This document shows positions 6,392-56,068 of a stretch of 64,000 bases of DNA, piece by piece (the stretch's first letter is position 1; every line of letters begins with the position of its first letter). The notes under the pieces were generated by a model, which was not told where the DNA came from, did not search any database, and saw only the letters and a list, made by a program, of their open reading frames with translations. Both the position numbers and the translations under genes were made by a program. Location: assembly GCF_000005825.2 (NCBI RefSeq), contig NC_013791.2, forward strand, positions 310,001 to 374,000. Reading direction: 5' to 3'. Source of the stretch: Alkalihalophilus pseudofirmus OF4. GTDB lineage: Bacteria > Bacillota > Bacilli > Bacillales > Bacillaceae_D.

Positions 6392-7054
6392 ATGAATATC
6401 ATTTCTTTACTATTTGGCAAGCCGTATCGCGCTAATAAGCTCTTTCTCTTTTTTTATTGGTTTGTCATTGCTTTTTATTTTGTCGGGTTTGTGATGATGA
6501 TCTCTTTGATTGTAATGACGGGTGAGTGGCTATTTATCATACCTCTAGTAATCTTCCCTTTATTGTTTCGTATAGTGTATAAATTAAATACGTTTATTTA
6601 TCAATCGATCTCTAATCAAAAAGATCATTCACCTTTAAAGAAGAAATGGATAATGATAGGGAGTGCTTTTGTCATCCTAATGATCACCTTTCCTATCCTC
6701 GTCTTTATGTTTTCAGACAACGTTGTAACGAATGTTTCCAATACAAATGTGAATGGTGAAATAGAGCTTTCGATTGGATCGGTAAAAGGTACTTATGAAA
6801 TTGAGGCGTTTCAAATTGAGGCGTTTCAATTAGAGGAATCAATAAACGATGTAGCTTTATTGCCTTACGAGGCCTTTGTAAGAGAGGGTTCCTTTTTATT
6901 ATTTCTAGAGCATAATGGCGAAATGATTTGGAGTGAAGAGGTTTCCGGGAACCATTCTGGCGAGATGGCGATAGAGCTGAGAGAAGGAACTTATCGAATT
7001 AAATTAGAGTCAGAAGAAGCGAAAGGCATTGTGATCAACTTGTCGCTTAATTAA
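6392..7054 (+). CDS. Unknown membrane protein with extracytoplasmic C-terminal domain
   Basis: A 220-residue protein with three hydrophobic segments (about residues 17-40, 43-62 and 90-112) and a C-terminal domain of about 105 residues probably outside the membrane. That domain is acidic and beta-rich, with a final REGTYRIKLESEEAKG pattern. RBS AGAGGTG precedes the ATG. Nothing in it names a family. A tandem 15-base duplication at 6798-6827 gives the repeated peptide IEAFQIEAFQ. It stands alone between two terminators; the link to the LXG cassette upstream is only positional. Confidence 0.65.
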   Translation: MNIISLLFGKPYRANKLFLFFYWFVIAFYFVGFVMMISLIVMTGEWLFIIPLVIFPLLFRIVYKLNTFIYQSISNQKDHSPLKKKWIMIGSAFVILMITFPILVFMFSDNVVTNVSNTNVNGEIELSIGSVKGTYEIEAFQIEAFQLEESINDVALLPYEAFVREGSFLLFLEHNGEMIWSEEVSGNHSGEMAIELREGTYRIKLESEEAKGIVINLSLN

Positions 7055-7071
7055 ATAATTCTCTCTAAACC

Positions 7072-7119
7072 AAAACAGCCTTTGCATAAGTAATATAACT
7101 GATGCAAAGGCTGTTTTTA
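7072..7119 (+). terminator. Rho-independent terminator
   Basis: A 16-bp perfect stem AAAACAGCCTTTGCAT / ATGCAAAGGCTGTTTT with a 14-base loop and T tract. It can act in both directions and also lies downstream of the minus-strand small gene ending at 7166. Confidence 0.9.
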
Positions 7120-7165
7120 AAATATGGGATAGAAAAGAGCAAACAAGATTAGATAAGATCGATTT

Positions 7166-7321
7166 CTATTGAAACATCGGAAAGACATATTGAACTAAGA
7201 ACCATAAGAACCCAAAGAAAATGATAATATAAGCTAAATATTTTATAAAGCTCGATGCTACTTTACTTGAATCATGCTTTTTCTCCACATGCTTCTCCTC
7301 GACATCTACATCTTTTCTCAT
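7166..7321 (-). CDS. Small single-pass membrane protein (51 aa)
   Basis: A short minus-strand frame of 51 residues: a charged N-terminal stretch with many Lys, Glu, Asp and His (1-19), then one hydrophobic helix (about 24-45) ending FPMFQ. AAAGGGAGG lies seven bases before the ATG, a very good ribosome binding site, and the frame ends just before a terminator that works on this strand. These signs support a real gene. The family is not recognised. Confidence 0.6.
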   Translation of the reverse strand: MRKDVDVEEKHVEKKHDSSKVASSFIKYLAYIIIFFGFLWFLVQYVFPMFQ

Positions 7322-7587
7322 GATAACGCCTCCCTTTAAAATGATTTCTTATCGTTTATATATCCGATTTGATACCACCTGAAACATAAGTAAAAAAGGA
7401 GGGTTGATCTACCCTTTTACCAATCAGTCCTAACTAGTGAAATGGATTCAATTAGGAAAAGGCGTGGAATCATTTCCATGTGAACAAGGACTTAATTTAG
7501 GCGTAGAGGTTTTGATTAAGCTAAATAGGGGGATGTAATAACCAACAAACAAATTGGAAAATAAGATTGAAAGGTTGTGAGGAAAAA

Positions 7588-7731
7588 ATGTTATGGACAG
7601 TACTGATTGTGTTGTTAGTATTGTGGCTACTAGGTTTTTCATTTGAAGTTGGAGGCGGACTTATTCATTTACTGTTAGTTGTAGCCCTTATCGTCTTCAT
7701 TCTACAAATGTTAACTGGAAGAAGAGCATAA
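7588..7731 (+). CDS. Small membrane protein, lmo0937 family (47 aa)
   Basis: A 47-residue protein that is two hydrophobic stretches around a GGGLIH turn: LW--LIVLLVLWLLGF, then HLLLVVALIVFILQML, then a basic TGRRA end. This is the layout of the lmo0937-type small membrane proteins common in Firmicutes and often linked with general stress genes. GTGAGGA precedes the ATG, and a terminator follows five bases after the stop. Function unknown. Confidence 0.75.
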   Translation: MLWTVLIVLLVLWLLGFSFEVGGGLIHLLLVVALIVFILQMLTGRRA

Positions 7732-7735
7732 CTGC

Positions 7736-7769
7736 AGCAAGCGTTCTTATTAGAGCGCTTGCTTTTTTT
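7736..7769 (+). terminator. Rho-independent terminator
   Basis: Stem AGCAAGCG / CGCTTGCT with a 12-base loop and a run of seven T. Confidence 0.85.
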
Positions 7770-7831
7770 CATGTGTTTTCCACTTTTGGTCATACTAAGG
7801 TAGATATTTGACCAAAGGAGTGAAGAAAGCC

Positions 7832-8737
7832 ATGAGAAAGCTGGTTGTTTTGTTATGTTTGCTGTTGAAGCTTACCATCTTGGTTCCGATGAAAGGGAGT
7901 GCAAGAGAAGTGACGTATCCTAATAATGATCTCCTCATTAGTTTAGAGGAGACGGCCCAGCGATTAAATGAAGAACATTTTATCATTGTTGATACACGCA
8001 GCGAAGGGTACACGGAAGGACATATTCCGGGAGCTTTACCGTTTGATGCTGCTCAATTAGCAGATAAAAGCCACCCTGTTGACGGATATTTAATTCGGGC
8101 AGAAGAATTTGAGCGATTAATGAATGAGCTTGAAATAAGCAACGATGATGAAATTATTGTGTATGATGATGGCGATGATACGGCAGCTACGAGGTTATTT
8201 TATGCGCTGGAATTATACGGACATAAAAAAGTACGGGTATTAAATGGCGGACTTAAAGCATGGAAGGCACAAGGCAAGGAGGTTTCTACAACTCCCAGCG
8301 AGGAGAGAAAAGGCAGCTTCAAGGCGAATATGCAGGCAAATCTTGAGGTGGAACAAGATTATGTGAAGGCATCAATTGACCACCCCAATAAGGTACTGTT
8401 CGATGTTCGTTCCAAAGCTGAATATATGGGGGAGGATGTCAGGGCGAAAAGAGGCGGTCATATCCCAAGTGCTGTGAACCTCGAATGGAAAAAGGTTTTA
8501 GAGGACGGGGAAGTGCCATATTTTAAAGAGGCGAGTGTCATTGACCAAATGCTTGAGGAAGCTGGAGTAACAAGAGAAAAACAGATTATCATTTACTGTC
8601 AAAAGGCAGAGCGAGCATCTCATATGTACTTTACCTTAAGGTTAATGGGGTTTGAACATCTTAGAATGTATGAAGGATCTTGGGAAGAATGGGGAAATGA
8701 CCCCGACACACCAATGGTAAATCCTAGTCAACAATAG
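7832..8737 (+). CDS. Exported double-rhodanese sulfurtransferase
   Basis: A 301-residue protein with an N-terminal signal-type hydrophobic stretch (residues 3-22) and two rhodanese domains. Domain 1 (about 30-150) has VDTRSEGYTEGHIPGA but an Asp-rich YDDGDD loop where the active Cys would be, so it is inactive, as usual for the first domain of two-domain enzymes. Domain 2 (about 170-290) has DVRS-AEY, GHIPSA and the active loop CQKAERA with Cys256. It fits thiosulfate or 3-mercaptopyruvate:cyanide sulfurtransferases, here probably outside the membrane. AAGGAG precedes the ATG; TTG 7808 and GTG 7820 overlap that site and are rejected. The gene stands alone with its own terminator. Confidence 0.8.
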   Translation: MRKLVVLLCLLLKLTILVPMKGSAREVTYPNNDLLISLEETAQRLNEEHFIIVDTRSEGYTEGHIPGALPFDAAQLADKSHPVDGYLIRAEEFERLMNELEISNDDEIIVYDDGDDTAATRLFYALELYGHKKVRVLNGGLKAWKAQGKEVSTTPSEERKGSFKANMQANLEVEQDYVKASIDHPNKVLFDVRSKAEYMGEDVRAKRGGHIPSAVNLEWKKVLEDGEVPYFKEASVIDQMLEEAGVTREKQIIIYCQKAERASHMYFTLRLMGFEHLRMYEGSWEEWGNDPDTPMVNPSQQ

Positions 8738-8802
8738 TTAAAATTAAAACACGAATGAAGAGCTAGCTAGCCCCTTTTAGAGAAATTTAAACACACTGAT
8801 TT

Positions 8803-8844
8803 AAAGACGACTGATTCTATTGAATTAGATAAGTCGTCTTTTTG
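8803..8844 (+). terminator. Rho-independent terminator after the rhodanese gene
   Basis: A 10-bp stem AAAGACGACT / AGTCGTCTTT with a loop of about 19 bases and T tract. Confidence 0.75.
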
Positions 8845-8874
8845 TGCAGGAATATTTAATCTTCTTCAAGCTCC

Positions 8875-9004
8875 GTTGATTGGAGCGGAAGGTACGAGAC
8901 TCCAGCGGGATGTGCGATGACCATGGGAGACCCCACAGGAGTGCAAACGACGAGGAGGCTCCCGGTCCGCCCGCGGAAAGCGAGTACCTGCAGCGGAAAT
9001 CAAC
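8875..9004. repeat. 130-bp structured intergenic repeat
   Basis: A GC-rich block in otherwise AT-rich intergenic DNA. It begins GTTGATT (8875-8881) and ends AATCAAC (8998-9004), a 7-bp terminal inverted repeat, with an inner pair GGTAC (8891) / GTACC (8984) and several GC-rich arms, so it can fold into a long branched hairpin. The ending GCGGAAATCAAC and the GGAGACCCC / GGAGGCTCCC pattern recall an interspersed intergenic repeat I associate with many Bacillaceae genomes; that recognition is from memory. It sits between the terminator at 8803 and the marR promoter. The short open frames through it are not credible genes. Confidence 0.65.
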
Positions 9005-9070
9005 CACTATTGCAAGGAGGAATTCTTTTGCTTGTACATGACTTGCTTTTAATTTATATTCTTGTCCTAT

Positions 9071-9099
9071 TTGACATAATACTTAAAGTAATTTATATT
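9071..9099 (+). promoter_or_regulatory. Sigma-A promoter of the marR-khtTU-relP operon
   Basis: TTGACA (9071-9076), a 17-base spacer, and TATATT (9094-9099). This matches the vegetative consensus closely and lies 54 bases before the marR start. Confidence 0.75.
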
Positions 9100-9140
9100 T
9101 AACTACATGAAGTAAATAGTTAATGGCATGAAATAAATAG
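9099..9140. promoter_or_regulatory. Putative MarR operator
   Basis: Perfect inverted repeat TTAACTA (9099-9105), 11 bases, TAGTTAA (9117-9123), overlapping the -10 and the likely start site. A direct repeat CATGAARTAAATAG at 9106-9119 and 9127-9140, 21 bases apart, overlaps it. Position and symmetry are typical of MarR autoregulation; binding by the adjacent MarR is inferred. Confidence 0.65.
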
Positions 9141-9152
9141 AAGGAGTTTAGA

Positions 9153-9599
9153 ATGGAAAAGGATGAGTTGAAGTTATATTACGCAAGGCTTGATCAAGCT
9201 TTTTATAAGGCAATGAAAACGTTAGGGCCAAAAGTATATGAAAAACTTGAACATAATCTCACGGGAGAACAATTTTTTGTCCTCAATACGCTAGAGCAGA
9301 AGGGTCGCATAACATCATCTCAGTTAGCAGAAGAGCTTCAAGTGAAGCCAAGTGCAATCACAGCCATGGTTGACCGTTTGCTAAAAAATGATTTTGTGAT
9401 AAGAGAACGAGATGAGAAAGACCGAAGAGCGGTATATGTGCGGATTTCAGATGAAGGCAGGAGAGCTTTGAAATCATCTGTAAAGAAACGGAATATAATT
9501 ATGGAGAAGTACATGTCAAAATTAACTGAAGAAGAAATGGAACAGCTGACAACAGTTCTTGAAAAGTTGACATCGATTATTATTGAATCAGAAAGCTAG
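9153..9599 (+). CDS. MarR-family transcriptional regulator
   Basis: A 148-residue winged-helix regulator. It has dimerisation helices at both ends, the DNA-reading part ITSSQLAEELQVKPSAITAMVDRL (residues about 52-76) and the wing DRRAVYVRISDEGR (about 91-104) with the DxRxxxxxLT-like signature of MarR. AGAAGGAG precedes the ATG. The promoter carries a palindrome across the -10, so it probably represses itself and the khtT-khtU-relP genes that follow without a terminator. There are no cysteines in the DNA-binding region, so a simple OhrR-type thiol switch is unlikely. The ligand is unknown. Confidence 0.85.
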   Translation: MEKDELKLYYARLDQAFYKAMKTLGPKVYEKLEHNLTGEQFFVLNTLEQKGRITSSQLAEELQVKPSAITAMVDRLLKNDFVIRERDEKDRRAVYVRISDEGRRALKSSVKKRNIIMEKYMSKLTEEEMEQLTTVLEKLTSIIIESES

Positions 9600-9640
9600 T
9601 CTGCACAAAACAATTAAACATAGATATAAAGGAGAACATA

Positions 9641-10144
9641 ATGAAGATTACAAGTGGAGATTTACCGGGAGTTGGAAAGAAGATATCCTTTATTACGAGT
9701 GAGGGGTCTATGGTCGTATTAGTCATTCATCACACCGGCAAAAGGGAAATGTATTTCTTTGACGATGCAGATGATGATGAAGTGAGCTTTTCTTTGACCT
9801 TATCAGCTGAGGAGACAAAGCAAATGGGGGCGCAGCTGCTTGGAGCTATTCTTAATCCTGCTGATACAGACAAGATTGACCGGATAAAGTTAATTCGCAA
9901 GCAAGTAGTAGTGGAATGGATTGATATCACTAAACATTCCCCCATCATTAGTAAAAGCATTGCACAAATAGAGAAAATGAAGCCAAAAGGAATCTCGATT
10001 GTCGGGGTATTTAAAAACGATGAAATGATGGTCGATCCGGAACCAACCCTCGTACTAGAAAAAGGAGATACGCTGATGGCTGTAGGAAAGCGTGATGCAA
10101 TTCAAAAGTTTGAGGAGCTTTGTGCATGTAAGGAGAATAATTAA
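9641..10144 (+). CDS. khtT: KhtT-like regulatory subunit of a K+/H+ antiporter (TrkA-C domain)
   Basis: A 167-residue cytosolic protein. It starts with the KhtT-type segment GDLPGVGKKISF and a beta-rich N-terminal domain (to about 75), then a TrkA-C (RCK_C) domain with IEKMKPKGISIVGVFKN (about 107-125) and VLEKGDTLMAVGKRDAIQKFEEL. In B. subtilis KhtT controls the antiporter KhtU and its RCK_C domain binds c-di-AMP; the alkaliphile AmhM is related. The gene stops two bases before khtU. The third B. subtilis gene, khtS, is absent, and a MarR gene takes its place. Confidence 0.85.
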   Translation: MKITSGDLPGVGKKISFITSEGSMVVLVIHHTGKREMYFFDDADDDEVSFSLTLSAEETKQMGAQLLGAILNPADTDKIDRIKLIRKQVVVEWIDITKHSPIISKSIAQIEKMKPKGISIVGVFKNDEMMVDPEPTLVLEKGDTLMAVGKRDAIQKFEELCACKENN

Positions 10145-10146
10145 CA

Positions 10147-11319
10147 ATGGTGATACCTGAATTATTTTCAGCCGGACTCATTCTTCTCCTTTTATTTATC
10201 ACAGGGTTTGTAGGAATGAAGATGAAAATTCCTGATGTTGTTATTTTTATTTTACTTGGGATTGCTGTCGGCGGCCTCTTAAGTGGATCACATCTTCTGC
10301 ATTTTGCAGGTGAAGTAGGAATTGTGCTTCTGTTCTTCATGCTTGGGATGGAATTTCCCCTTAAACAACTCATGTCGATCGCTAAAAAAGTATTAAGAGC
10401 GGGGATCTTAGATGTAGCGTTGAGTTTTGGGGTGACCATGGCTATTTGTATGATGATGGGTCTAGATGTGATTACATCGCTTATTATCGGCGGAGTAGCC
10501 TATGCAACCAGCTCGTCAATTACTGCTAAAATGCTTGAAAGTTCAAAAAGAATGGCAAATCCAGAATCAGAATTTATGTTAGGGTTACTCATATTTGAAG
10601 ATCTAGTTGCACCGATTTTGGTTGCTGTATTAGTAGGGTTAACTGCTGGAATGGCGTTGACTGCAGGATCTATGTCACTATTAGTTGTAAAGGTCGTTGC
10701 GCTTGTTGCCGGTGCTGTTATTTTAGGGGTCTTCTTGTTTAGAAAGCTTGGTTCTTTCTTTGACCGCCATATGAAGCATGATTTATTTATTTTATTTGTC
10801 ATCGGCCTTGCTTTAATGTATGGGGGACTTGCACTTTACTTGGACCTCTCAGAAGTACTGGGCGCATTCTTGGCAGGAATTATGCTTGCAGAAGTAAAAC
10901 GAACCCATGAACTAGAATTAATGGTTGTGCGTTTTCGTGATTTATTGCTGCCTTTATTTTTCCTCTACTTTGGTACAACAATTAGTTTCAGTGAAGGGAT
11001 TCCAATGATTCCTTTACTCATCCTTGTCTTGGTATGGTCGGTTATTGCAAAGGTTATAGTCGGGGTGCTTGGCGGCAGATGGTACGGACTTACAAAAAAA
11101 GTGTCCTTGCGAGCTGGATTATCCCTAACGCAAAGAGGAGAATTCTCTATTATCATCGCAAGTCTTGCTGCGGGCTCTATTAAAGCATTCAGCAGTGTGT
11201 TTATTTTAGCATCTGCCATGATTGGGATTTTATTGTTTCAGTTTGCACCATCTATTGCGAATAAATTTTACGGAAAAAAAGCTAAAACATCAGTAAAACA
11301 ACATGTTGGATCTGCTTGA
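10147..11319 (+). CDS. khtU: KhtU-like K+(NH4+)/H+ antiporter, CPA2 family
   Basis: A 390-residue, very hydrophobic protein with about 12 membrane helices, belonging to the Na+/H+ exchanger fold CPA2 family (KefB/KhtU/AmhT). Visible signs are the N-terminal FITGFVGMKMKIPDVVIFILLGIAVG, the unwound-helix region YATSSSITAKML, the FEDLVAPILVAVLVG segment and the GEFSIIIASLA segment. It lacks the C-terminal KTN domain of KefB/C; the regulator is the separate KhtT just upstream, two bases away. It would export potassium or ammonium in exchange for protons, important at high pH or during osmotic downshift. Confidence 0.88.
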   Translation: MVIPELFSAGLILLLLFITGFVGMKMKIPDVVIFILLGIAVGGLLSGSHLLHFAGEVGIVLLFFMLGMEFPLKQLMSIAKKVLRAGILDVALSFGVTMAICMMMGLDVITSLIIGGVAYATSSSITAKMLESSKRMANPESEFMLGLLIFEDLVAPILVAVLVGLTAGMALTAGSMSLLVVKVVALVAGAVILGVFLFRKLGSFFDRHMKHDLFILFVIGLALMYGGLALYLDLSEVLGAFLAGIMLAEVKRTHELELMVVRFRDLLLPLFFLYFGTTISFSEGIPMIPLLILVLVWSVIAKVIVGVLGGRWYGLTKKVSLRAGLSLTQRGEFSIIIASLAAGSIKAFSSVFILASAMIGILLFQFAPSIANKFYGKKAKTSVKQHVGSA

Positions 11320-11350
11320 CGATAGGATTTATTAAAGGAGTAGATGAAGG

Positions 11351-12088
11351 TTGTCACAACAAACGAGTGTGAGTGTAGAGCAAATAAAAGCTGTAAAGCA
11401 AGAGTTCACTAGGTTCATGATGATGTATAAATTTGCTCTAGATGAGATGAATACAAAAATTAATATCCTGCAAGAAGAGTTTCAGTATATTCATAGCTAT
11501 AATCCAATTGAACATACGAAATCAAGACTGAAATCTCCAGAGAGTATTGTTAAAAAGCTGAGACGAAAAGGACTCCCGTTATCACTTGTAAGTGTGAAAG
11601 ACCAAATCCAAGATATAGCGGGGATCCGGATTAGCTGCTCTTTTATCTCAGACATTTATATCATTAGTGAGATGCTTCAAAAACAAAAAGATATCACGGT
11701 GATTGAATGCAAGGATTACATTGAAAAGGCTAAACCGAACGGCTATCAAAGCCTTCATCTGATACTAGAGATACCGGTCTTCATGTCTGATCGTGAGGAG
11801 AGGGTGAAAGTAGAAGTTCAAATCCGAACAGTTGCGATGGACTTTTGGGCCAGCCTTGAACACAAAATCTACTATAAGTATGAAAAGGCTGTACCCGCAC
11901 ATTTACTTAAAGAATTGAAAGAAGCAGCAGATGCGGCAGCTGAATTAGATCAGAAAATGGAGAGGATACATCAGGAAGTAGAAAGCGCCAAGAGTAAAGA
12001 AGAGGCTGACCAACAAGTGATTTATATAGATAATAAAACACTCGAATTACCCCATAAGCTTATTCAAGCGATAGCTGATGCAAAATAA
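11351..12088 (+). CDS. relP: Small alarmone synthetase (GTP pyrophosphokinase), RelP/YwaC type
   Basis: A 245-residue single-domain (p)ppGpp synthetase without a hydrolase or TGS domain. Motifs: HTKSRLKSPESIV (55-67), DIAGIRI (88-94), NGYQSLH (130-136), EVQIRT (155-160) and FWASLEHKIYYK (165-176). The NPIEHTKSR start and CSFISDIY segment match B. subtilis YwaC/RelP better than YjbM/RelQ. The C-terminal 45 residues (acidic coiled coil, then VIYIDNKTLELP) are longer than YwaC. Translation starts at TTG with AAGGAG ten bases upstream; the ATG at 11344 is out of frame and soon stops. It follows khtU by 31 bases with no terminator, so it is probably in the same operon. Confidence 0.85.
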   Translation: MSQQTSVSVEQIKAVKQEFTRFMMMYKFALDEMNTKINILQEEFQYIHSYNPIEHTKSRLKSPESIVKKLRRKGLPLSLVSVKDQIQDIAGIRISCSFISDIYIISEMLQKQKDITVIECKDYIEKAKPNGYQSLHLILEIPVFMSDREERVKVEVQIRTVAMDFWASLEHKIYYKYEKAVPAHLLKELKEAADAAAELDQKMERIHQEVESAKSKEEADQQVIYIDNKTLELPHKLIQAIADAK

Positions 12089-12098
12089 AAGCAAGAAG

Positions 12099-12127
12099 AA
12101 AAAACGCCTATCAAGAGGCGTTTTTTC
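12099..12127. terminator. Rho-independent terminator after relP
   Basis: Compact stem AAAAAACGCCT / AGGCGTTTTTT with a six-base loop. Confidence 0.9.
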
Positions 12128-12230
12128 TATAGGGAGGACGACTACTGGCTATTTTTCAAAAGAGTCTTTAGACTAGATATAAAGAGGTAGCTTTAAAAAG
12201 ATAGCAATAAAATCGAAAGGTAGGATATAG

Positions 12231-12884
12231 ATGAGCGACGAAGGCCGGATATTAATTGTGGTCTCGGTTGACGCAGAGAAAGAAGCTGTGCAGCGAGGGA
12301 TTGGAGAGAATAATAAAAATATTGATATTCTAACAGCTGGAGTAGGAGTGGCCAAAGCAGCAGCGGCGACTGCTTTTAAGCTTGCTGGTGAACAGTATAA
12401 ATTAGTGATTAATGCAGGAATTGCAGGCGGGTTTACTGGACGTGCAGAAATTGGCACAGTCGTTTTAGCAGAACAAGTGATTTGTGCAGACCTAGGTGCT
12501 GAATCAGACAGCGGCTTTCTTACTGTCGATGAGTTAGGCTTTGGATCAGGTGTTATGGATGTAGATAGGCCTGCTTTATTATCTGTATACAAAGCATTAG
12601 AGCAAACAGAGCTGGTTGTAAATAAAGGAGAGGTTCTCACTCTTTCTACAGTTACTGGAACAAAAGAAAGTACACTTGAATTAATGGAGAGGTATCCGGA
12701 TGCTCTTGCTGAAGCAATGGAAGGCTTTGGTGTAGCGAGCGCTTGTGCTTTATGTGAGGTTCCTTTTATGGAAATGAGAACGATATCGAATGCAATCGGT
12801 CCTAGAGATCGTGAGGCTTGGAGAATAAAAGAGGCGCTGTTAAGCTTAGAAGAAGCGAGTAAAACCATTTCGGAGGTAGTATGA
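12231..12884 (+). CDS. mqnB: Futalosine hydrolase
   Basis: A 217-residue nucleoside-phosphorylase-fold hydrolase. It has LTAGVGVAKAAAA (34-46), the phosphate/ribose-site strand VINAGIAGGFTG (59-70), the catalytic-type AEAMEGFGVA (160-169) with Glu164, and SNAIGPRDR (186-194). These fit futalosine hydrolase, which splits futalosine to hypoxanthine and dehypoxanthine-futalosine in the alternative menaquinone pathway; close relatives are MTA/SAH nucleosidases. The assignment is strengthened by the immediately following mqnD, whose start overlaps its stop codon. Presence of mqnB points to the direct futalosine route. mqnA and mqnC are not in the window. Confidence 0.85.
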   Translation: MSDEGRILIVVSVDAEKEAVQRGIGENNKNIDILTAGVGVAKAAAATAFKLAGEQYKLVINAGIAGGFTGRAEIGTVVLAEQVICADLGAESDSGFLTVDELGFGSGVMDVDRPALLSVYKALEQTELVVNKGEVLTLSTVTGTKESTLELMERYPDALAEAMEGFGVASACALCEVPFMEMRTISNAIGPRDREAWRIKEALLSLEEASKTISEVV

Positions 12885-13717
12885 TGAAGATAGCATTTTC
12901 ACCGTGTCCTAATGATACATTTGTTTTCCATGCAGCTGTTCATGGAAAGATTCCTGAGGCACCTAAATTAGACGTAACGTATGCTGACATTGATAAAACG
13001 AATTATTGGGCAGCTGAGGGGATTGGACCAGAGATACAAAAAATCTCTTATGCTGCGCTTCCGTATGTTTTAGACGAGTATGCCCTTATCCCATGCGGCG
13101 GCGCACTTGGCAGAGGCTGCGGACCTTTATTGCTTACGGCAGGGGGAGATCAATCTCCACGTTCCTTAGCTGGGAAGCGGGTAGCGGTACCAAGTGAAAG
13201 GTCTACTGCTTATTTATTATTCAGGCTTTGGGCTGCCGAAGCGATCCCTGAAGGCTTAGATGAAATTGTCGTTATGCCGTTTCATGAGATTATGCCAGCT
13301 GTACGTGATGGCAAAATTGATGCCGGTCTTGTCATTCATGAGGCAAGATTTACGTATCAAGAGTTTGATTTAAAGATGTTAGTTGATTTAGGTGAGTGGT
13401 GGGAGCAAGATACAGGGCTTCCGATTCCTCTAGGCGCTATTGTCGCTCATCGATCTCTTAACAAGGAAGAGGTTACAAAGTGGGTGAGAGCTTCTGTCGA
13501 CTATGCATGGGAAAACCCAGAGGCCTCTATTGAATATATCATGGAGCATGCCCAAGAGTTATCTTATGAAGTGGCCAAGTCACATATTGATTTATATGTA
13601 AATTCATTTTCTCAAGACCTTGGAGAAGAGGGGTTTAAGGCTGTAGCCAGCTTACTTGGTAGAGCGGGAGCAGAGGGGCTTGTTCCCGAAGTTGACTTGA
13701 GTTTATTAAAAAATTAA
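12884..13717 (+). CDS. mqnD: 1,4-dihydroxy-6-naphthoate synthase
   Basis: A 277-residue periplasmic-binding-protein fold enzyme with the signature N-terminus MKIAFSPCPNDTFVFHA, GALGRGCGPLLL, the loop VAVPSERSTAYLLFRLW and the HEARFTYQEF segment, all typical of MqnD. It converts cyclic dehypoxanthine-futalosine to 1,4-dihydroxy-6-naphthoate for menaquinone. The start region is ATGATG overlapping the mqnB stop; the second ATG (12884) has better spacing (seven bases) from GGAGG than the first (12881). Translationally coupled to mqnB; a terminator follows. Confidence 0.9.
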   Translation: MKIAFSPCPNDTFVFHAAVHGKIPEAPKLDVTYADIDKTNYWAAEGIGPEIQKISYAALPYVLDEYALIPCGGALGRGCGPLLLTAGGDQSPRSLAGKRVAVPSERSTAYLLFRLWAAEAIPEGLDEIVVMPFHEIMPAVRDGKIDAGLVIHEARFTYQEFDLKMLVDLGEWWEQDTGLPIPLGAIVAHRSLNKEEVTKWVRASVDYAWENPEASIEYIMEHAQELSYEVAKSHIDLYVNSFSQDLGEEGFKAVASLLGRAGAEGLVPEVDLSLLKN

Positions 13718-13730
13718 AAGACGACTAATG

Positions 13731-13763
13731 AGAGAACAGGTCAAACGGCTTGTTCTTTTTTTG
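13731..13763 (+). terminator. Rho-independent terminator after mqnD
   Basis: Stem AGAACA / TGTTCT with an inner partly paired GC-rich loop, then a run of seven T. Confidence 0.75.
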
Positions 13764-13852
13764 TGTTGATTTCCTTATCTGCTTTTATTGGGGCGAACTT
13801 TCGGACTCAAACTGAATCTAGGTGTATATACATACTATTGAGGTGATCTAAG

Positions 13853-14797
13853 ATGGAGAAGGTGCTCTTATTTTGTGATCCGGGTATAGATGATTCTGTA
13901 GCCATTATGTTCGCGTTGCTTCATCCTGATATTGAAGTAGTAGGAATTGTGTCTAGTTACGGAAATGTTGATAAAGAACAAGCAACGAATAATGCCGCTT
14001 ATTTGCTTGATCTTGCAGGGAGACTTGATGTTCCTTTAATTGGTGCGGCGGCTTACCCTTTATCAGGGGAAATGGCTGTTTATTATCCTGAAATTCATGG
14101 GGAAGAAGGGTTAGGGCCGATCACACCTCCAGATACGATAAGCGGCACATTAGAAAATTTTTCGCGTGTTTTCTCCATTATCGATGAATACGAAGGAGAG
14201 CTCGTCATCGTTGATGTTGGAAGGCAAACCTCATTAGCTTCAGCCTTTATTCTCGGTGAGGATGTAATGGATAAAGTTAAAGCCTTTTATGTAATGGGCG
14301 GAGCTTTTCTTGTGCCTGGCAATGTAACCCCGCTTGCAGAAGCAAATTTTTTTGGTGATCCCATTGCTGCAAACGTTGTTGCCACAAGAGCGCATAGTCT
14401 AACCATTGTGCCATTAAATGTGACGAATTATGCCATTTTAACGGATGAAGTTATAGATCAGATTACGGACCAAGAATATAACACCTTCACTCCCCTTATA
14501 AGGCCCATTTACGATTATTACGCAGAAGCATATCAAGAGCTTGTGTTAGGAATAGAGGGGGCTCCTTTTCACGATGTTGTGACATTGGTTGCGCTGACCA
14601 ATCCAGAATTATTTGATTTTGTGGAAAGAGAAGTAACGGTTGTCGATGATCCAAGTGTAAGAGGCTTAAGTGTAGCGGATTTTAGACCGCTATCTGCTGA
14701 AGAAGAAGCGTCAATAGAGGGTGCTCAAATTGCAATGGATTTTAATTATGATGAGTATATCAATATCTTTATCCAAGTAATGAAAATGGAGTTTTAA
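13853..14797 (+). CDS. Inosine-uridine preferring nucleoside hydrolase family protein
   Basis: A 314-residue protein with the calcium-site N-terminal motif CDPGIDDSVAIMFAL (residues 8-22), the conserved YVMGGAF (about 147-153), the NFFGDPIAANVV segment (about 165-176) and a C-terminal APFHDVVTLVAL, the usual His-Asp near the end of the family. It would hydrolyse ribonucleosides to base and ribose, feeding the salvage genes downstream. GAGGTGAT precedes the ATG. It has its own terminator. The exact base preference cannot be told; the family also includes proteins of other function. Confidence 0.82.
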   Translation: MEKVLLFCDPGIDDSVAIMFALLHPDIEVVGIVSSYGNVDKEQATNNAAYLLDLAGRLDVPLIGAAAYPLSGEMAVYYPEIHGEEGLGPITPPDTISGTLENFSRVFSIIDEYEGELVIVDVGRQTSLASAFILGEDVMDKVKAFYVMGGAFLVPGNVTPLAEANFFGDPIAANVVATRAHSLTIVPLNVTNYAILTDEVIDQITDQEYNTFTPLIRPIYDYYAEAYQELVLGIEGAPFHDVVTLVALTNPELFDFVEREVTVVDDPSVRGLSVADFRPLSAEEEASIEGAQIAMDFNYDEYINIFIQVMKMEF

Positions 14798-55956: not shown

Positions 55957-55996
55957 TGCTGTTGAAGGGAAAATAAAGAAGGACTTATCTCACCTA

Positions 55997-56047
55997 TTGA
56001 AATACCCGTTAGGTATATTAATATGATCATATACCTAACGGGGTATT
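55997..56047 (+). promoter_or_regulatory. Promoter with CsoR/CstR-like inverted repeats before the VKOR gene
   Basis: TTGAAA (55997-56002), 16 bases, TAATAT (56019-56024). A 14-bp perfect inverted repeat CCCGTTAGGTATAT (56005-56018) / ATATACCTAACGGG (56029-56042) surrounds the -10. Each arm is itself a near-palindrome, ATACCCGTTAGGTAT and ATACCTAACGGGGTAT, resembling the ATACCCC..GGGGTAT sites of CsoR/CstR repressors. Regulator identity is inferred. Confidence 0.55.
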
Positions 56048-56068
56048 ATGATAAATGGAGGGATAGTT

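Follow-up and report, generated by a model that had tools for sequence, protein, structure and literature searches.

A putative MarR-controlled operon joins a KhtTU-type antiporter to a RelP-type alarmone synthetase in Alkalihalophilus pseudofirmus OF4

In Alkalihalophilus pseudofirmus OF4, four consecutive genes encode a MarR-family regulator, the two subunits of a KhtTU-type cation/proton antiporter, and a RelP-type small alarmone synthetase (marR-khtT-khtU-relP). We analyzed this locus within a 64,000-nucleotide (nt) stretch of contig NC_013791.2 (assembly GCF_000005825.2, positions 310,001 to 374,000, forward strand), referred to here as the window; coordinates are window positions unless a locus is named. 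With moderate confidence, we favor a reading in which the four genes would form a single MarR-autorepressed transcript that is released by a drug-like ligand and yields the antiporter together with RelP. A MarR dimer bound to TATTTAACTACATGAAGTA over the −10 box would repress its own transcript, and a lipophilic drug-like compound would free MarR from this operator. The resulting mRNA would supply more MarR, as feedback, along with KhtT-KhtU and RelP. KhtT-KhtU would then move K+ or NH4+ out and H+ in, acidifying the cytoplasm, while RelP would make (p)ppGpp and growth would slow.

All four genes lie on the + strand: marR at 9153-9599 (148 amino acids [aa]; a YusO/MdtR-like MarR regulator), khtT at 9641-10144 (167 aa; an RCK_C regulatory subunit), khtU at 10147-11319 (390 aa; by sequence family a CPA2-type K+/NH4+:H+ antiporter), and a relP/sasA-type small alarmone synthetase gene at 11351-12088 (245 aa), whose TTG start codon lies 10 nt past AAAGGAG. 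Matches of all four proteins exceeded the Pfam cut-offs (MarR, PF01047, 64.2 bits; KhtT, TrkA_C PF02080, 51.4 bits; KhtU, Na_H_Exchanger PF00999, 162 bits; RelP, RelA_SpoT PF04607, 123.9 bits). The intergenic gaps are 41 nt (marR-khtT), 2 nt (khtT-khtU), and 31 nt (khtU-relP), and no khtS-sized gene fits into the first of these. A first-pass annotation of this DNA had given the same gene order, coordinates, and gaps, and open reading frames (ORFs), Pfam, and Protein Data Bank (PDB) matches bear it out exactly.

A promoter-like TTGACA-17-TATATT element lies ahead of marR (9071-9099, +; 11 of 12 consensus matches) and is kept in A. marmarensis and in G100, a second genome of the same species. 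Because the number of sites in the scan (11) showed no excess over expectation (9.0), the assignment of the main promoter is based on score, place, and conservation. Terminator calls likewise showed no excess over shuffled sequence, and score and place are thus the grounds for the probable terminator behind relP, a hairpin with a T-run (12097-12128) that the scan called on the − strand and that on the + strand reads as a GC stem followed by TTTTTT. No + strand promoter-like site was detected by the promoter scan between 10168 and 12006, and so none ahead of relP. Patterns resembling SigM or SigW promoters were not found on the + strand of 8700-11400. Rfam found no riboswitch in 7000-14000; its single sub-threshold match was taken as chance. 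The first-pass annotation had proposed one MarR-controlled operon with no terminator before the end of relP. A hairpin with a T-run does follow relP; a single + strand terminator-like site, a 5-pair stem in khtU (10699-10715), lies within the operon. Tight spacing and the lack of a detectable promoter before relP fit one operon, for which we infer co-transcription and MarR repression from the sequence. A dispersed intergenic repeat of ∼150 bp, with ∼50 copies or fragments in G100, occupies 8863-9030, just 5' of the marR promoter.

The type of regulator bears on the likely signal. The best match of MarR among 90 matching PDB sequences was 1s3j, YusO of Bacillus subtilis (E = 1.9e-20). The protein thereby falls by sequence with the YusO/MdtR repressors, strict orthology being a step beyond a best match. 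In passages of PMC10860749, the product of mdtR, once called yusO, is described as a repressor acting at the promoter of mdtR-mdtP, the multidrug-efflux operon to which its gene belongs and which it binds there. Searching 397 genomes of the order gave 42 with a MarR match at E ≤ 1e-24, of which 30 loci were compared (2 from the genus and 28 of the 40 outside it), with 12 further matching genomes left out. The gene after marR in the 28 relatives outside the genus was a DHA2-type MFS drug-efflux gene in 25 and an RND multidrug pump in 2 (L220 and L221); no pump was found in the other (L223, on a short contig). NCBIfam names were checked for 6 of these loci. OF4 lacks such an adjacent gene and has khtT-khtU-relP where 27 of 28 relatives have a pump. 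The locus is thus like B. subtilis mdtR-mdtP (yusO-yusP) in its YusO-type MarR, which there represses an operon made up of its own gene and that of a membrane transporter, but unlike it in that the MFS drug pump is missing and khtT-khtU-relP comes next. Given the YusO/MdtR type of MarR and the efflux genes beside its relatives, pH, ammonium, K+, or cyclic di-AMP (c-di-AMP) is a less likely inducer than a lipophilic drug-like compound.

The relatives also suggest where MarR would bind. Common to them is a TATTTAA-N5-TTAAATA palindrome over the −10 box, which all 28 relatives outside the genus match at 12 or more of 14 positions and 24 of them at 13 or more; this consensus was derived here from the relatives and is not a published definition. 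The distance from TTGAC to the operator is 25 or 26 nt in 24/28 of these relatives and 25 nt in OF4 and A. marmarensis. The OF4 candidate, TATTTAACTACATGAAGTA (9096-9114, +), overlaps the −10 box and matches at 12/14. A scoring matrix built from these 28 relatives, with no genus members included, ranked it first among 127,964 positions in the window. Markov-shuffled upstream regions reached 12/14 in 2.7% of cases, and of the 46 ORF upstreams within the window only that of marR did so. Because the predicted operator covers the −10 box and would block RNA polymerase, autorepression by MarR is likely. A possible second operator, TAGTTAATGGCATGAAATA (9117-9135, +), lies 21 bp downstream of the first and is weak, with matrix scores of 6.3 to 6.9 that rank 8 and 10 in the window. 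A perfect 7-bp inverted repeat at 9099-9123 was dropped as an argument, since its chance expectation is 18%. The second-best matrix match in the window (13.8; 55986-56004, − strand) lies ∼45 bp ahead of the ORF at 56048, the translated product of which starts like a membrane protein; this site could be a further MarR target or chance.

The fourth gene is assigned to the RelP rather than the RelQ type. Its product matched RelP/YwaC in the PDB (6fgk) at 238.6 bits, versus 161.5 bits for RelQ/YjbM, and OF4 RelQ separates from RelP with 100/100 support in the relP tree. The best NCBIfam match was the YjbM equivalog model, under its cut-off (195 of 320 bits). RelP has one RelA_SpoT domain (PF04607, residues 58-179 of 245 aa), and no other Pfam family was detected at E 0.001, hence no hydrolase or C-terminal regulatory domain. 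The motifs NGYxSLH and ExQIRT..MDFWASLEHK are conserved in the alignment with YwaC, and (p)ppGpp synthesis is predicted. Like sasA/ywaC of B. subtilis (RelP, or SAS2), the gene encodes a RelP-type synthetase with 6fgk as best match; unlike in OF4, where relP sits in a MarR operon, control of sasA/ywaC is listed as SigM/SigW in a table of PMC3498285. Passages of PMC6853874 and PMC5075769 describe induction of sasA/ywaC by cell-wall antibiotics and alkaline shock, with ppGpp raised, and excerpts of PMC10117811 propose that KhtTU matters most at alkaline pH. For these reasons, the pairing of the antiporter with RelP would make physiological sense.

The antiporter itself has the KhtTU layout, with a KhtT N-domain and RCK_C beside a CPA2 permease, and the best PDB match of KhtT was 7agv. 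It thus resembles khtS-khtT-khtU of B. subtilis in placing an RCK_C subunit gene directly before that of a CPA2 antiporter and differs in that khtS is absent from the gap, the c-di-AMP pocket signature is lost, and marR precedes and relP follows. The signature of c-di-AMP-binding RCK_C domains, as given in passages of PMC10117811, is (I/L)(I/L)x2DxRx5N(I/L)(I/L), and the pocket residues of BusR are described in part of PMC8517857. The corresponding region of OF4 KhtT, residues 107-121 (IAQIEKMKPKGISIV; 9959-10003, +), does not fit this signature: Glu111-Lys112-Met113 aligns to Asp-Val-Arg of B. subtilis KhtT. We compared 47 distinct KhtTs from the loci examined, a subset of the genomes with khtU, of which 12 belong to one KhtU clade (15 of 53 tree rows; support 99/99) and 35 lie outside it. 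Within the clade, the Arg was kept in 0/12, a hydrophobic residue at the Val position in 1/12, and the pair in 0/12, whereas the hydrophobic-Arg pair was present in 32/35 outside; OF4 has K-M. The first-pass annotation had coupled this operon to c-di-AMP through KhtT, an arm that fares poorly, given that the pocket residues are missing in OF4 and in 11 other intact KhtTs of the clade. OF4 KhtTU is probably not governed by c-di-AMP. However, because B. subtilis KhtT itself retains just part of the signature (D.R), OF4 KhtT could still bind the nucleotide.

Some genomes show no KhtT at all. In G006 and G011, both in this KhtU clade, none was found at E 1e-12 and none lies directly upstream of khtU; in G015, outside the clade, none was found at the same threshold. 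In the corresponding loci L036 (6560-9262) and L037 (6860-9882), khtU is followed by relP after gaps of 27 and 15 bp and khtT is missing upstream; the antiporter seems to lack its regulatory subunit there. G035, also in the clade, has KhtT matches in four separate pieces (L137) beside an intact KhtU, and its RelP is split with stops; decay and sequencing error are both possible.

Adjacency of khtU and relP recurs outside OF4. In a set of 100 relatives, khtU was detected at E ≤ 1e-60 in 26, of which 13, OF4 included, also had a RelP-type gene (interrupted by stop codons in G035). The two genes were adjacent in 3 of the 13 (OF4, G006, and G011) and lay 3.3 kb apart on the same strand in one more, A. 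bogoriensis (G043), with a response regulator, a histidine kinase, and a radical-SAM protein gene in the interval; G154, from the order-wide search, repeats this pattern. By simple arithmetic, random placement would bring the pair within 5 kb in ∼0.2% of genomes, and the observed adjacency is therefore not mere coincidence. No linkage was seen in 9/13, mostly drafts with the two genes on separate contigs; in G070, khtU lies 0.6 kb from a contig end, so that linkage there could still exist. Sorted by KhtU clade, linkage among the RelP-bearing genomes was found in 4/6 inside the pocket-loss clade and 0/7 outside, with G055 and G099 (48% identity), both absent from the tree, scored as outside and G006 and G011 representing one genus. 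A tie between pocket loss and relP linkage itself was rejected, as the loss extends across a larger clade in which some members show no linkage. The A. bogoriensis locus (L035, 6882-11464) reads, on one strand, khtT-khtU, an OmpR-type response regulator, a histidine kinase, an SPL-like radical-SAM protein, and relP; L203 (G154) has khtT, khtU, and relP at the same spacing.

The history of relP suggests more than one such event. The relP tree, in which 15 of 40 inner branches are unresolved, groups OF4 with A. marmarensis and G100 (96/98), G006 with G011 (100/100), and A. bogoriensis with G154 and then G031 (98/89). A single origin of all linked relPs, together with the two genus members that lack khtTU, was rejected by the approximately unbiased (AU) test (p-AU 0.018, with groups defined once the tree was known). 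Uniting just two of the three linked lineages in one clade, in any pairing, was compatible with the data (p-AU 0.20, 0.097, and 0.068). Since one clade is rejected and any two lineages are allowed, the linkage arose at least twice, perhaps three times, always within the KhtU clade with pocket loss. The first-pass annotation had looked to conserved synteny, an expectation that largely failed: the full four-gene order occurred in 0/80 named relP loci, some of which are short and among which the OF4 genome may not be included, and two of three other genomes of the genus have marR-relP without khtTU. Among these 80 loci, khtTU was within reach of relP only in A. bogoriensis, and a close marR ortholog only in A. 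marmarensis. A plasmid search gave only partial matches, in the relP part, and no copy of the operon.

Within the genus, the locus exists in two forms. In G100 and A. marmarensis, marR is followed directly by relP and khtTU is absent; in the third genome, G002, no RelP, khtU, or close marR was found. OF4 and these two genomes share 95 to 98% DNA identity in the flanks but only 80 to 81% in relP, delimiting a segment exchanged between haplotypes (9600-12120) with a left break at the marR stop codon (9600-9603) and a right break at 12059-12120. G100 and A. marmarensis agree at 97.3% over 7.5 kb, leaving OF4 as the odd one. In both, two P-II-like genes and two DUF1538 membrane-protein genes lie between relP and mqnB, opposite to relP (L034 6088-8260 in A. 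marmarensis; L156 4082-6218 in G100, on which the domains were called). A. marmarensis carries a 30-nt relP-like relic ahead of mqnB that matches OF4 relP at 23/30 positions versus 19/30 for its own relP, and the G100 alignment row resembles it there. This relic may point to the OF4-type junction as the older one, though it is too short to fix the direction of exchange. Base composition showed no clear anomaly at the exchanged segment. These comparisons suggest that marR-relP is the steadier pair in the genus, with khtTU gained or lost by segment exchange, and that the gene combination varies even between genomes of one species. In G100, similarity to the marR region starts only near the −35 box, past the dispersed repeat.

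Several points weigh against a MarR-repressed four-gene transcript released by a drug-like compound. The transcript and operator binding are both predictions, and weak promoter-like sites precede khtT and khtU (+ strand, 9/12 matches, at 9615-9642, 9921-9948, and 10141-10168). The OF4 operator is degenerate, at 12/14. In other loci, 19 of 1,090 control ORF upstreams also reach this count; among 15 of those 19, at least 6 belong to MarR genes, two of them the same gene, and some loci are duplicated. OF4 was itself among the sequences from which the consensus was drawn by eye, and each upstream region supplied as its training site whichever stretch fitted that consensus best; independence from OF4 is thus confined to the letters of the matrix. 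A single named Bacillus genome was searched; its closest MarR (37%) lies, by inspection, ahead of an MMPL-type gene, and the best operator match there is only 10/14. The MarR ligand may also have changed once the efflux gene was gone. BusR without the Arg yet binds c-di-AMP, according to part of PMC8517857, and by analogy KhtT without the signature might do so as well. Such binding is central to a model in which the operon responds to cations or alkali and c-di-AMP gates KhtT, so that K+ efflux and (p)ppGpp are coupled. The nucleotide is a ligand of canonical KhtT, and activation of KhtTU by it rises ∼60-fold from pH 7.5 to 8.5 (passages of PMC10117811); the alkaline-shock induction of B. subtilis sasA fits as well. 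We nevertheless consider this model very unlikely, with K-M in OF4 KhtT, the residue pair missing from every clade KhtT compared and kept in most others, and a MarR of the drug-efflux type. CbpB/DarB, moreover, acts on a long RSH protein, not RelP. It is through CbpB/DarB that the known link from c-di-AMP to (p)ppGpp runs, as described in parts of PMC8549634 and PMC11302148.

Two further readings dispense with the drug signal or with shared function. The khtT-khtU genes of OF4 are what we take to be amhM-amhT, apparently the same genes described in Bacillus pseudofirmus OF4, whose products have been linked to the homeostasis of ammonium and K+; a study of OF4 in J. Bacteriol. (2003) reportedly connected AmhT with ammonium homeostasis and is said to mention an orf7-orf10 deletion. 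The operon might accordingly be an ammonium or alkali homeostasis unit whose MarR senses internal pH, ammonium, or redox rather than drugs. P-II is a classical nitrogen-regulatory family, and the P-II-like and DUF1538 genes beside relP in the alternative haplotype speak for this idea, which we judge unlikely because the MarR relatives sit beside drug pumps and no ammonium or pH sensor is evident in the sequence. Alternatively, one recombination could have placed khtTU between marR and relP as a frozen accident, with a shared transcript and no shared function. Exchange of the segment between conspecific genomes, the 9 of 13 genomes in which no linkage was seen, and a relP tree that does not unite all linked copies are in keeping with such an accident. 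Yet khtU near relP recurs in G006/G011, A. bogoriensis/G154, and OF4, always in one KhtU clade and in none of the seven genomes outside it, and the AU test rejects a common origin of all linked relPs while allowing any two lineages (0.07 to 0.20). We therefore hold a frozen accident to be somewhat unlikely and retain the MarR-autorepressed, drug-released operon as our preferred reading.

No report of amhM-amhT in an operon with relP was found in the literature; the original OF4 papers lay outside the search and may show the gene order, which is probably already in print as ORFs. Nor did we find KhtU and ywaC together in one paper or, by titles and the starts of abstracts, a small alarmone synthetase in a MarR operon, and the passages of PMC6120979 on pseudofirmus OF4 contain no mention of marR-khtT-khtU-relP. 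The operon is a new wiring of known parts and is evolutionarily unstable. The surprise is that the antiporter clade that repeatedly meets relP is the one whose KhtT lost the c-di-AMP signature. A bolder extension, which we regard as doubtful, is that a drug-sensing MarR captured an alarmone synthetase and a c-di-AMP-independent antiporter as an inducible tolerance module, in which a toxic compound would free MarR, RelP would stop growth, and KhtU would reset pH and cations. On this view, the repeated pairing of khtU with relP would reflect a swap, in this antiporter clade, of c-di-AMP control for control by or with (p)ppGpp. If the preferred reading is correct, (p)ppGpp synthesis in this alkaliphile would be wired to a xenobiotic-sensing repressor, in contrast to the envelope-stress sigma factors of B. 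subtilis. A KhtTU clade without the residues for c-di-AMP control would likewise be a natural experiment on the purpose of such control, and the strain-level presence or absence of khtTU allows closely related strains to be compared.

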